Shown: positions 2,721 to 7,180 of the stretch, piece by piece
How positions within the stretch are numbered: the stretch's first letter is position 1
Layout: each line of letters begins with the position of its first letter
IMG/VR virus record: IMGVR_UViG_3300024308_000016
Location: 124,001 to 188,000 of that record
Length of the DNA stretch: 64,000 nucleotides
Strand: one strand, 5' to 3'
Source: a virus
Translations under genes and position numbers: made by a program
Notes under the pieces: model-generated
Seen by the model: only the letters and a program-made list of their open reading frames with translations
What the model was told of the DNA's origin: nothing
Databases searched by the model: none

Positions 2721-4760
2721 ATGTCGAATATCGCGAAAGCACGGGATTTCATTCACATGGATCCCGAGGAAGTGCTGAGTTATCCTAAGCGTTTCCAGAT
2801 GGAGTTTGACAATGGCGAGATCCGGGAAGTGCAGCGCAAGCTGACGTGGGCATCGATGTTCGCGTGGCGTATCTTGAGGAAGTTCCCCGGCACTCCGGTA
2901 CTTCCCGATCACCACTTCCAGTTTATCCTCGATGGCAAGAACCTGCAGTCGAGCACTCATAACAAGTGCGCGTCTAACATCTTCAAGACCATCGTGGGCG
3001 ACGGATTTATCTCGCCGGAAGATCGAGAGGTCTTCCAATACGAGGTGCAATGCTTCGTCAATGACCTGTACAACGGGTTGCGGGAGAAGTCGGGTCGACA
3101 CCTTCAGACCATCGACATCGTGGACTGTATCAAAGTGATGATGCACCCACCAGTGCTCGAAGCCTGGGTAAATGCAGAATCCACCCCTCGTGGGGTGGAC
3201 GCAGTAAACACCGTCATCAAGGATTCGATCTACAAGGACAAGGAGCTCAAGTACAACGGCATGGCCATGGCTATGCGTAGTGGCTCCGTCAAGGCCAACC
3301 AGGTCTACCAATCGGTGGGCGTTCGCGGTTTCCCGAAAGAGATCGATGGACGCATCTACCGCACGATGATCTTGTCCAACTACGTGTTTGGCATCACGAA
3401 CTTATATGAGTTCGCCGCTGACTCTCGTGGTTCGGCTGAGCACTTGATGGCCACTGAGAGCCCCTTGCAGGATTCGGAATACTTCTCCCGGCGCCTGCAG
3501 CTGCAAACGTGTGTGCTCGAGCGTATCGAGTATACTGACTGCGGCACGTCCAAGACCATCCCCTGGCTTGTCAAGCCGTCGGCCTACGACGAGTCCTCGG
3601 GTGATTTCTATCCAGGCGATCTGAAGTTCATGATCGGCAAGAAGTACATCGATCCCAAAACCGGTGGACTCAATACGATCTTCGGCTATGAAAAGCACCT
3701 GGAAGGCAAAACCATCCAAGTGCGTTCGGTGCTCACCTGTGAGCACTCCGACCCTCATGCCGTCTGTCAGGTCTGCTTCGGGATGACGGCCAACAACCAC
3801 TCCCGCTGGGCCAACGTGGGTGTGGTGGCCGCTACCACCATCGTGTCCAAGATCTCACAAAAGACCTTGTCTACCAAGCACCACATTGCATCGGGCCAGG
3901 GCTCGGGCATTGTGCTGAACTCGGCACTGAAGACCTACTTCCGGAGAGGTCCAAAGAACACCGACTATGTGCTGGAGAAAGATACGGCCACCTGGGGTCT
4001 CAAGCTCATCGTACCCAGAGATGGAGCACTGGGACTGGTGGACATCGAAAACATGGATGCCGATCTGGAAAAGCTCAACCCCGAGCGGATCACCGGCTTT
4101 GACATCATCCGGATGGTGGGCAAGAATCCTATCACCGGGGTGGAGTTCTCGGACTCGTTGACCGTGATGCAGGGCAACCGGATGGCGTCCATGAGCATCA
4201 AGCTGCTGCGCTATATCCAAAAGCACGGCAAGGAGATGGACAACCGCAACAACTTCGTGATCGACCTCAGGCACTGGGACTTCAACGATGTGCTGCTGAC
4301 GCTGCCTGACATTCAGGTGTCGTTCTCTGCGCACGGCAATGCGATCGCGGAAGTGATCGAGTCCAAGTTCTCCCAGATCTCGGAGCGCAACTCGGAAGAC
4401 GCACCTCTGCGTGTGCTCAACCAAGTGTTCGATATGGTCACTCCAAAGCTCGATGTGCCTTTTGTGGCATTCGAGTGCGTGGTCTATCCGTTGCAGGTTC
4501 CCCGACAAGGCAGTTACGCAATGAGTCGTGGGTCCCCCAACCCCGTGATGGGCATCGGCAAGGACCTGATCCTCAACCGCTCTATGGGCACAGCATGCGC
4601 TTACCAGGAATGGAAGTACAACATTCTGAGCCCTAAGAGCTACGTCAAGACCGGCAAACCCAGCACCGTGATGGATGTGTTCATCTGTCCGCGTGAGGTG
4701 GTCGCTGAGTTCAAGGCCCGTAAACTGGGACCTCACCGCATCAAGCGGCACGCTTTCTAA
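2721..4760 (+). CDS. RNA polymerase beta' subunit, C-terminal part
   Basis: This is the C-terminal portion of an RNAP beta' chain. Residues 184-222 (MAMRSGSVKANQVYQSVGVRG...) align with the funnel/rim block [21 protein letters not shown]. Residues 233-258 match the [22 protein letters not shown] block. All four zinc ligands are present: Cys274 (in TDCGT), Cys340, Cys349 and Cys352. The following segment (VGVVAATTIVSKISQKTLSTKHH, given here as residues about 366-388) aligns with the bridge/trigger region [22 protein letters not shown], although the normally invariant QSIGEPGTQ core is rewritten. The catalytic NADFDGD motif belongs to the N-terminal half and is absent, so another subunit must carry it. 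Lies 17 bases after beta-C and ends at a strong terminator. Confidence 0.9.
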   Translation: MSNIAKARDFIHMDPEEVLSYPKRFQMEFDNGEIREVQRKLTWASMFAWRILRKFPGTPVLPDHHFQFILDGKNLQSSTHNKCASNIFKTIVGDGFISPEDREVFQYEVQCFVNDLYNGLREKSGRHLQTIDIVDCIKVMMHPPVLEAWVNAESTPRGVDAVNTVIKDSIYKDKELKYNGMAMAMRSGSVKANQVYQSVGVRGFPKEIDGRIYRTMILSNYVFGITNLYEFAADSRGSAEHLMATESPLQDSEYFSRRLQLQTCVLERIEYTDCGTSKTIPWLVKPSAYDESSGDFYPGDLKFMIGKKYIDPKTGGLNTIFGYEKHLEGKTIQVRSVLTCEHSDPHAVCQVCFGMTANNHSRWANVGVVAATTIVSKISQKTLSTKHHIASGQGSGIVLNSALKTYFRRGPKNTDYVLEKDTATWGLKLIVPRDGALGLVDIENMDADLEKLNPERITGFDIIRMVGKNPITGVEFSDSLTVMQGNRMASMSIKLLRYIQKHGKEMDNRNNFVIDLRHWDFNDVLLTLPDIQVSFSAHGNAIAEVIESKFSQISERNSEDAPLRVLNQVFDMVTPKLDVPFVAFECVVYPLQVPRQGSYAMSRGSPNPVMGIGKDLILNRSMGTACAYQEWKYNILSPKSYVKTGKPSTVMDVFICPREVVAEFKARKLGPHRIKRHAF

Positions 4761-4861: not shown

Positions 4862-7180
4862 ATGACTGTGACTGCTACTAAGCCCAGGAACCCATATGGA
4901 GAGCTCGCCATCTATTCCCACAGCTTCATCGTCAAGGGTCATTGTGACCGGGTGATCAAGGCCGCCCGCACGGTGCTTGATCGCTATAGCGAAAAGAAGT
5001 GGGAGAAGGTCAAAGTCGGAGACGGTGAGTTTGTCAACCGCCAAGTCATCGACAAGCGATACGGGACGGCGTTTCCCGATGGCGTCACTTTCCAGTTCCA
5101 CAAAGGGCAATTCAACGAATTCAAACAGCTGCTGCAGTCCATGGAGGTCTACATCGATGCCATGGACATCTACACAGCTCCTACCTACACGCCTCGAAAG
5201 GTGGAGTACGATCTTCGGGAAGGCCGGGTCCTTCGGGACTACCAAGACAATGCCAAGGAGTTTGCACGAGCCGACATCAGCTCGGGTGACCACTTCTCCA
5301 AACTGATCGCCATGCCCACGGGCACCGGCAAAGCTCTGAGTGCCGACACACTCATGGTCACCCGGGACAAGGGAGTGATCCCTTTAAAGGAAGTGATCGT
5401 GGGTGATGAGGTCATGGCGCCTGATGGCTCCTGGACTGTGGTGTTGGGTGTGTATCCCCAGGGGCTGAGGAAGTCCTGGACTGTCACGTTTTTGGACGGT
5501 CGCTCAGTGACATGCGATGCTGAGCATGACTGGGAAGTCATGAAGAATGGCTGTATGGACACCCAGGTGGTCAACACCGAACAGTTAGAAGAGCTGGTTC
5601 TCAGTGATCCGTACTGCGTGCCGTTCTTTGACCCACTGGTGTACTTCTCTGAGCGAGAGGACTACTACGAGGTCACGCAGGCGTTGGTGACAGCTGTGGA
5701 GCGCTCAGGCTTCATCCACGACGAGCAGTTGTACATCGACTGCCCGACTCCGGAAGCTGCCACTGCTTTGGTCGATCTTGCTCACTCCCTGGGTTCGATC
5801 GCAGCACTGAGTCAGATCCTTGCACAGGGCATGCAAGTGTTGGTGCACAATCGCTTCTTGGCCAAGACGCTGTATGAAGCGATCAATCCAGATCGCCGAG
5901 CAGGGATGACACAAGACGCCTACATCCGCAGGCAAACCAACATCACTGGAGTGCCGATCTCCCGTGTGGTGCCCGAGGATGTGTGTGACATGATCTGCAT
6001 CGAGGTCGATCACCATTCTCACCTGTTTGTGCTGGCCAACTTCATCGTCACCCACAATACCGTCACCAGCTGCGCCATCGCTGCTGAAGAAAAGACCCGC
6101 TGGCTCGTATCTGTATTGCCAAAGTACAAGGACAAGTGGGGCTCTGATGTGGTGGAGAACCTGAACCTCAAGCCCAAAGAGGTGATGATTGTAGAGAGCA
6201 CCGATCAGCTGCGTGGGCTGATTGACATGTGCAAGACCCACGGCACCAAGAAACTCCAACCCGTCATCGTTGTCACCTTGACTACGCTGGCGACATTTTT
6301 CAAGCTGTGGATGAAAGACCCGCAGGGCTGCATCGAGGACTATGGCTGTGAGCCTATGGACCTGTGGCGTATCTTGGACATCGGCACTGTGTCGGTGGAC
6401 GAAGCGCACGAGCACATCTACAGCATCTACTTGCTGGCGATGCACCTGCATGGACCCAAGTTCGTCTCCATGAGTGGCACCATGGTGGCGGAAGATCCCT
6501 TCGTTGAGATGATCCAGAAAATCATCTTCCCGATGGTCAAACGCTATGACCAAGTCAAGATGGGTAAGTACATCGACGTCGAGTTCCTGGGATTCTCCAT
6601 CAAGCGGGAATTCAGGCACAAGATCCGGTGCACGGCGTTCGGTAGAAACGACTACTCGCATGTGGAGTTCGAGAAGTCCATCATGCGCAACAAACTCGTC
6701 CTCAATGCCTGGCTCATCATGATCGAGGTCATGATCAGTTACAGCTACTACGACCGAAGGGTCAAGGGTGACAAGCTTGTCGTGTACGCCGCCACCACTG
6801 ACATGGTCAACATCTTGGTCAACCGCTTCAAGCAAACGTACCCGGATCTGGTGATCATGCGCTACGCCAAGACAGAAGGCGACAAGTACAAAAACATCCT
6901 GAGCGCCGACATCACGGGCTCAACGCTGCAGTCTTCTGGGACCGCGGTGGACATCCCCAATCTCATCACCGTCATCTGCACCACCATGGTCAACTCCGCC
7001 AGGACCAACTTGCAGATGCTGGGACGATTGCGGGATTTGGCCGGCAAGCAGATGAAGTGCCTGATGCCCTTTTGCAAGGACATCCCCAAGCACCGATCGT
7101 ACACGGCGTATCGAGCAGACTTGTTCCAAGACCGCTCTAAGTCCATCAAGACGTTCTACTACGACCGAGATCTCGGTTAA
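4862..7180 (+). CDS. SF2 DEAH-type helicase (UvsW-like) with intein
   Basis: An ATP-dependent DNA/RNA-unwinding enzyme of superfamily 2, most like phage T4 UvsW. Motif I is split: MPTGTGK (151-157) is followed by a 242-residue intein (158-399), and the P-loop threonine is Thr400. After splicing the host protein is 530 residues. Motif II is DEAH (513-516), motif III is SGT (538-540) and motif VI is QMLGRLR (718-724). About 150 residues precede the P-loop, as in UvsW, which has an N-terminal nucleic-acid-binding domain. T4 UvsW remodels recombination intermediates and stalled forks, so a role in replication and recombination is likely. Because the intein interrupts the ATP-binding loop, the helicase should be inactive until splicing. 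It is flanked by terminators, so it is probably its own transcription unit. Confidence 0.88.
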   Translation: MTVTATKPRNPYGELAIYSHSFIVKGHCDRVIKAARTVLDRYSEKKWEKVKVGDGEFVNRQVIDKRYGTAFPDGVTFQFHKGQFNEFKQLLQSMEVYIDAMDIYTAPTYTPRKVEYDLREGRVLRDYQDNAKEFARADISSGDHFSKLIAMPTGTGKALSADTLMVTRDKGVIPLKEVIVGDEVMAPDGSWTVVLGVYPQGLRKSWTVTFLDGRSVTCDAEHDWEVMKNGCMDTQVVNTEQLEELVLSDPYCVPFFDPLVYFSEREDYYEVTQALVTAVERSGFIHDEQLYIDCPTPEAATALVDLAHSLGSIAALSQILAQGMQVLVHNRFLAKTLYEAINPDRRAGMTQDAYIRRQTNITGVPISRVVPEDVCDMICIEVDHHSHLFVLANFIVTHNTVTSCAIAAEEKTRWLVSVLPKYKDKWGSDVVENLNLKPKEVMIVESTDQLRGLIDMCKTHGTKKLQPVIVVTLTTLATFFKLWMKDPQGCIEDYGCEPMDLWRILDIGTVSVDEAHEHIYSIYLLAMHLHGPKFVSMSGTMVAEDPFVEMIQKIIFPMVKRYDQVKMGKYIDVEFLGFSIKREFRHKIRCTAFGRNDYSHVEFEKSIMRNKLVLNAWLIMIEVMISYSYYDRRVKGDKLVVYAATTDMVNILVNRFKQTYPDLVIMRYAKTEGDKYKNILSADITGSTLQSSGTAVDIPNLITVICTTMVNSARTNLQMLGRLRDLAGKQMKCLMPFCKDIPKHRSYTAYRADLFQDRSKSIKTFYYDRDLG
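5333..6058 (+). other. Intein in the helicase P-loop, Ala at position 1
   Basis: An in-frame 242-residue protein intron between Lys157 and Thr400. Block A begins ALSADTLMV and continues with GVIPLKEVIVGDEVM. Block B is VTCDAEHDWEV. Blocks F/G end VLANFIVTHN, followed by Thr as the +1 extein residue. Position 1 is alanine (GCT at 5333), not the usual Cys or Ser, so the first N-S/N-O shift cannot occur and splicing must use a class 2 type direct attack by Thr+1, or fail. The middle (about intein residues 105-190, with ATALVDLAHSLG) looks like a degenerate LAGLIDADG endonuclease; no intact catalytic pair is visible. Confidence 0.88.

Follow-up and report, generated by a model that had tools for sequence, protein, structure and literature searches.

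The insert at 5333-6058 of the stretch of DNA analysed here is most probably an intein of class 3. It interrupts the XPB/UvsW-like helicase of a jumbo phage at the classic P-loop position, the Lys/Thr bond of Walker A, and we put the probability of this reading at roughly 0.9. The stretch (the window) comprises 64,000 nucleotides and is part of a 272-kb virus record. A first-pass annotation made from the letters alone had already placed a 242-residue intein within the GTGK/T of a UvsW-like helicase (here and below a slash within a motif marks the insertion bond), and its coordinates, length, frame, junctions and 530-residue product were all correct. That annotation saw only two options for an intein beginning with Ala, namely a class 2, KlbA-type mechanism or a dead element, and in doing so missed a class 3 signature made up of W67, C222, T240 and Thr+1. 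The features are listed in Table 1.

Table 1. Features of the precursor gene and of the intein within it, in window positions.
Feature	Position	Strand	Basis or remark
Precursor ORF, 772 aa, XPB/UvsW-like SF2 helicase plus intein	4862..7180	+	PHROG, profile and fold matches
N-extein, 157 aa, C-terminal end ..PTGTGK, the first part of Walker A	4862..5332	+	
Intein, probably class 3, 242 aa, Ala1 ... THN	5333..6058	+	Alignments, profile, predicted fold
Intein residue 1, Ala (GCT), non-nucleophile	5333..5335	+	
His65 (B:10), predicted to act as general base on the block F Cys	5525..5527	+	Invariant; role from PMC7664689
Trp67, B:12 (W of WCT)	5531..5533	+	Invariant
LAGLIDADG half-domain relic (one), intein residues about 98-205	5624..5947	+	Alignments, predicted fold
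Cys222, F:4 (C of WCT), predicted first nucleophile	5996..5998	+	Invariant
Thr240 (G:5, T of WCT), His241 (G:6) and Asn242 (G:7, predicted to cyclise)	6050..6058	+	THN invariant
Thr+1 (G:8), ACC, predicted second branch point; Walker A Thr after splicing	6059..6061	+	T400 invariant
C-extein, 373 aa	6059..7177	+	Helicase motifs invariant
Walker B DEAH in the C-extein	6398-6409	+	
Motif VI QMLGRLR in the C-extein	7013-7033	+	

The N- and C-exteins together are one SF2 helicase of the XPB/UvsW-like type. PHROG profiles run against the precursor ORF placed the host in the DNA helicase family phrog_16 (2.3e-23), a profile built from intein-free homologues matched the XPB family (E 1.1e-11), and the fold of the exteins matched XPB/TFIIH as well as T4 UvsW (2oca, 1.3e-9). 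Further PHROG matches to "terminase", "primase" and "helicase loader" were rejected as indicators of host identity, as all of them lay inside the intein and were read as intein-to-intein matches. Walker A, the DExH box and motif VI were all present, and residues G154, G156, K157, T400, D513, E514, H516, Q718, R722 and R724 were invariant in alignments of precursor homologues. Two RNA-polymerase-subunit genes precede the ORF (PHROG E 8e-150 and 2e-136), with an RNA polymerase beta'-like gene (2721-4760) directly upstream, and the order of helicase after RNA polymerase subunit recurs in many related jumbo phages. We conclude that, without the intein, the two exteins make up an intact helicase.

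The intein splits Walker A after the GTGK encoded at 5321-5332, and subtraction of its 242 residues from 772 predicts a spliced product of 530 aa. All 242 codons were open in frame, as was the case for none of 2000 shuffles of the same bases, and the precursor frame is open over 2316 nt, the codon use of both the intein and the exteins being phage-like. GC3, taken as a codon-use check for recent import, was 0.69 in the intein versus 0.73 in the background. By phmmer the intein resembled solved class 3 inteins and gp41-1 (E 6.7e-9 to 1e-4), with gp41-1 and the mycobacterial class 3 DnaB inteins as its best solved relatives, and an intein interrupts precisely this bond in ten named jumbo-phage homologues. 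In the intein profile search that the first-pass annotation had proposed, a profile of the family matched solved inteins (E 1.9e-18). No match above cut-off for the intein came from Pfam, NCBIfam or the Pfam generic splicing profile, such that standard annotation would overlook it. A single-sequence scan of viral contigs found no close relative of the intein, and no second intein of the family was found in its own, possibly incomplete, 272-kb record. In a tree of inteins (136 columns) it fell among other helicase-site inteins, in a grouping without starred support and on a long branch (1.64). Its N-terminal block has one extra residue, and the residue separating His65 from Trp67 is Asp66, a position occupied by Leu, Gln or Met in the other inteins compared.

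Inteins of class 3 can dispense with a nucleophile at residue 1 (mechanism and definition in PMC5222942, PMC7891396 and PMC7664689) and are recognised by Trp at B:12, Cys at F:4 and Thr at G:5 (WCT), usually together with Ser or Thr, rarely Cys, at +1 (PMC5222942, PMC7891396). The window intein has Trp, Cys and Thr at these positions and Thr at +1, and its first residue is Ala, not Cys, Ser or Thr; it was rejected as a class 1 intein proper on account of that residue. His65, Trp67, Cys222, Thr240, His241 and Asn242 were invariant when the window intein was aligned with the inteins that nine jumbo phages carry at this site (10 rows), and the identical list emerged from a 19-row alignment with 18 IMG/VR homologues, the two alignments sharing only a few copies of named phages. 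Cys218, of the sequence VCDM, was considered for F:4 and rejected, as the alignment puts F:4 at C222. Consistent with the assignment, the AF2 model has a HINT/intein fold with a confident splicing core (mean pLDDT 82 for the intein, higher in the core); its best mini-intein fold match was the class 3 M. smegmatis DnaB intein (target TM 0.84-0.86), and class 3 DnaB inteins were matched at target TM 0.80-0.86. Moreover, when the family profile was run on the PDB, the class 3 DnaB inteins 6rix, 6riy and 6bs8 scored 60-63 bits, and wild-type class 1 gp41-1 (6qaz) scored 56.4 bits versus 69.9 for 6riz, an engineered gp41-1 variant with class 3 residues (C1A, F65W, D107C).

The survey of the insertion site covered 87 distinct homologues of the helicase (75 IMG/VR sequences, 12 named phages and the window, with a few near-identical members between the sets), of which 32 have an intein at the Lys/Thr bond, 54 have none and one is a broken record. 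Among the 86 scorable helicases, every one of the 32 site inteins has HxW, Cys at -21 (F:4) and THN/T. Residue 1 was Ala in 25, Met in three, Ser in two, Leu in one and Val in one, never Cys, and such freedom to vary is expected of a residue that takes no part in splicing. Two inteins combine Ser1 with a full WCT, L036 (4274-5311) and L057 (4034-4807), and so hold class 1-like and class 3 nucleophiles together.

Alignments and model indicate that the window insert has an intein fold, the WCT, the block B His, the penultimate His, the terminal Asn and Thr+1, and from its sequence we conclude that it very probably splices. By analogy with class 3 biochemistry, Cys222, activated by His65/Thr240, would attack the Lys-Ala bond to form a first branched thioester, and Thr+1 would then acquire the N-extein by transesterification. 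Cyclisation of Asn242 would free the intein, and an O-N shift would leave the 530-aa helicase with a normal P-loop, GTGKT. Ala1 would be harmless because residue 1 takes no part in this proposed route. The helicase would be broken by imprecise removal of the intein or by a failure to splice, and this is probably why the intein persists. The first-pass annotation rightly read Ala (GCT) at residue 1 and held that an intein of this kind must avoid the class 1 route, and its view that blocks B and G look intact is borne out for H65, T240, H241 and N242. The direct attack by the +1 residue that it invoked does not fit, as in class 3 inteins the block F Cys attacks first, and Ala1 is the family norm, not an anomaly.

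One alternative is that the intein is splicing-dead and the helicase gene non-functional. The divergence of the element, seen in its long branch, Asp66 and dead endonuclease, is in keeping with such a loss, and WCT does not guarantee splicing, since gp41-1 with a grafted WCT barely spliced (PMC7664689). Every class 3 catalytic residue is nonetheless present, the frame is open throughout with phage-like codon use on both sides of each junction, and the helicase motifs are intact on both sides, so that neither part looks released from selection; we regard a dead intein as improbable. A class 2 intein of the KlbA type is less probable still: Ala1 lacks a nucleophile as that class requires, but the block F Cys and the full WCT are class 3-defining and invariant in all homologues, and the Cys+1 expected to make the first attack in class 2 (PMC7891396) is Thr in the window intein. 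The class 2 KlbA structure 2jnq (PMC7664689) was, moreover, absent from the profile matches and from the 50 best fold matches listed, where class 3 ranks high. Loss of the Cys1 codon from a class 1 intein, through a sequencing or assembly error at 5333, would agree with the predominance among known inteins of class 1, whose members carry a nucleophile at position 1 (PMC5222942), but is scarcely credible given that Ala occupies residue 1 in most inteins at the site and Cys in none. With the class 3 assignment, an Ala-1 intein in an ATPase active site turns from an apparent paradox into an ordinary, testable case in which Cys222 is named as the key residue.

The first-pass annotation was right that the endonuclease has decayed. 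An active LAGLIDADG enzyme has two motifs and their catalytic acids; the window intein lacks the first half-domain, and its second motif, ALVTAVERSGF versus LLxGLxDTDGT in active relatives, has lost the catalytic Asp. The relic retains helix-strand-helix elements in the model with modest confidence (block means about 57-80), and the top fold match of the predicted intein was PI-SceI. With only a half-domain and no catalytic acid, the element can probably no longer home. The 32 site inteins fall into size classes of 342-359 aa with LAGLIDADG motifs (10), 242-285 aa (15) and 143-203 aa (7), and comparison with these homologues suggests an ancestor that bore a two-motif LAGLIDADG homing endonuclease. 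The catalytic acid is also lost in the other mid-length inteins of the alignment, and those examined among the fifteen of 242-285 aa keep one LAGLIDADG half without it, a possible hint of some use for the relic. We consider it unlikely, however, that conditional splicing, for instance redox-sensitive splicing as reported for M. smegmatis DnaB inteins (PMC6195587), gates activation of the helicase during infection and that this role accounts for the retention of the catalytic Cys and of the endonuclease half.

Intein-free alleles at this site, which the first-pass annotation had suggested seeking in related phages, number 54 among the 87 homologues and run straight through the insertion bond. 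One of them is the window helicase's nearest relative (L014, 50% identical), which reads IPTGGGKTVTF versus MPTGTGK/TVTSC, and among Serratia phages BUCT660 has the intein and Moabite does not, with flanking coding DNA identical at 406 of 407 and 1104 of 1110 bases. Intein state changes at least 16 times on the helicase tree, and at least 14 of these changes are forced by well-supported branches. The near-identical flanks in BUCT660 and Moabite indicate that gain or precise loss was recent in some lineages. The view that the window insertion is old and fixed agrees with its dead endonuclease but not with an intein-free closest sequenced relative. We conclude that the helicase P-loop site shows repeated gain or loss, with both intact and decayed endonucleases.

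Two records contain breaks in this gene. The public record of Salmonella phage vB_SalM_SA002 (L008) shows the helicase as two ORFs owing to an interruption of the frame, whether real or a sequencing error, within Walker A and immediately ahead of the class 3 intein (about 1800-1870). The IMG copy of Serratia phage 2050HW (L040) differs from BUCT660 by one base in length in the intein endonuclease region (about 4863), which likewise splits the gene into two ORFs; if real, the arrangement could resemble a split class 3 intein, although a record error is more likely.

Numerous other phage ORFs carry members of the same intein family behind the GK of a motif resembling Walker A, ending THN/T or THN/S. 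L094-L173 are class 3 inteins after such a GK in many different phage ORFs, and the cross-matches of the PHROG profiles for terminase, primase and helicase loader seem to arise from the intein parts of these profiles. Pseudomonas phage EL has a second class 3 intein (L104) of about 366 aa, GK/A...THN/S, in another large ORF in addition to the one in its helicase. Among phage P-loop proteins, L072, L078 (4265-4693), L118 and L172 have class 3 inteins of only 138-144 aa in which WCT is complete, and these are candidate compact splicing tools; the first three sit in helicase homologues. Compact natural forms at the helicase site (143 aa) could interest protein engineers.

Both P-loop insertion and class 3 inteins are already documented in phages, and the window intein would be a divergent new member. 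No description of class 3 inteins at this helicase site was found in the literature searched, although one public record says "intein-containing". In jumbo phages that carry RNA polymerase genes, the P-loop of the XPB/UvsW-like helicase is by the present assignment a further conserved site of class 3 inteins, of which 1701 were counted by 2020, 82.5% with LAGLIDADG motifs (PMC7891396). The closest known systems are the SF2 helicase class 3 inteins of jumbo phages, including Pseudomonas EL gp40, Xanthomonas LucasX, Serratia BUCT660, Erwinia Rebecca, Vibrio VP4B, Aeromonas AerS_266 and others, which share the host gene, the Lys/Thr site, WCT, THN/T, mostly Ala1 and, usually, a helicase gene placed after an RNA polymerase subunit gene. 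They differ in that intein identity is 25-31% and several retain a two-motif LAGLIDADG endonuclease. The mycobacterial DnaB-1 class 3 inteins (MsmDnaBi1, 6bs8; MchDnaB1, 6rix/6riy) have the same fold, WCT and lack of an N-terminal nucleophile, but are DnaB-hosted mini-inteins of about 140 aa without an endonuclease relic. KlbA class 2 inteins have Ala1 in common with the window intein, but no block F nucleophile and Cys rather than Thr at +1 (PMC7891396, PMC5222942). Inteins of both class 1 and class 3 are reported in PMC5050341, and mycobacteriophage P-loop inteins such as TerL1-a, whose host gene is a terminase, resemble the window intein in their "classic" Walker A Lys/Thr insertion in a phage ATPase (PMC5050341).
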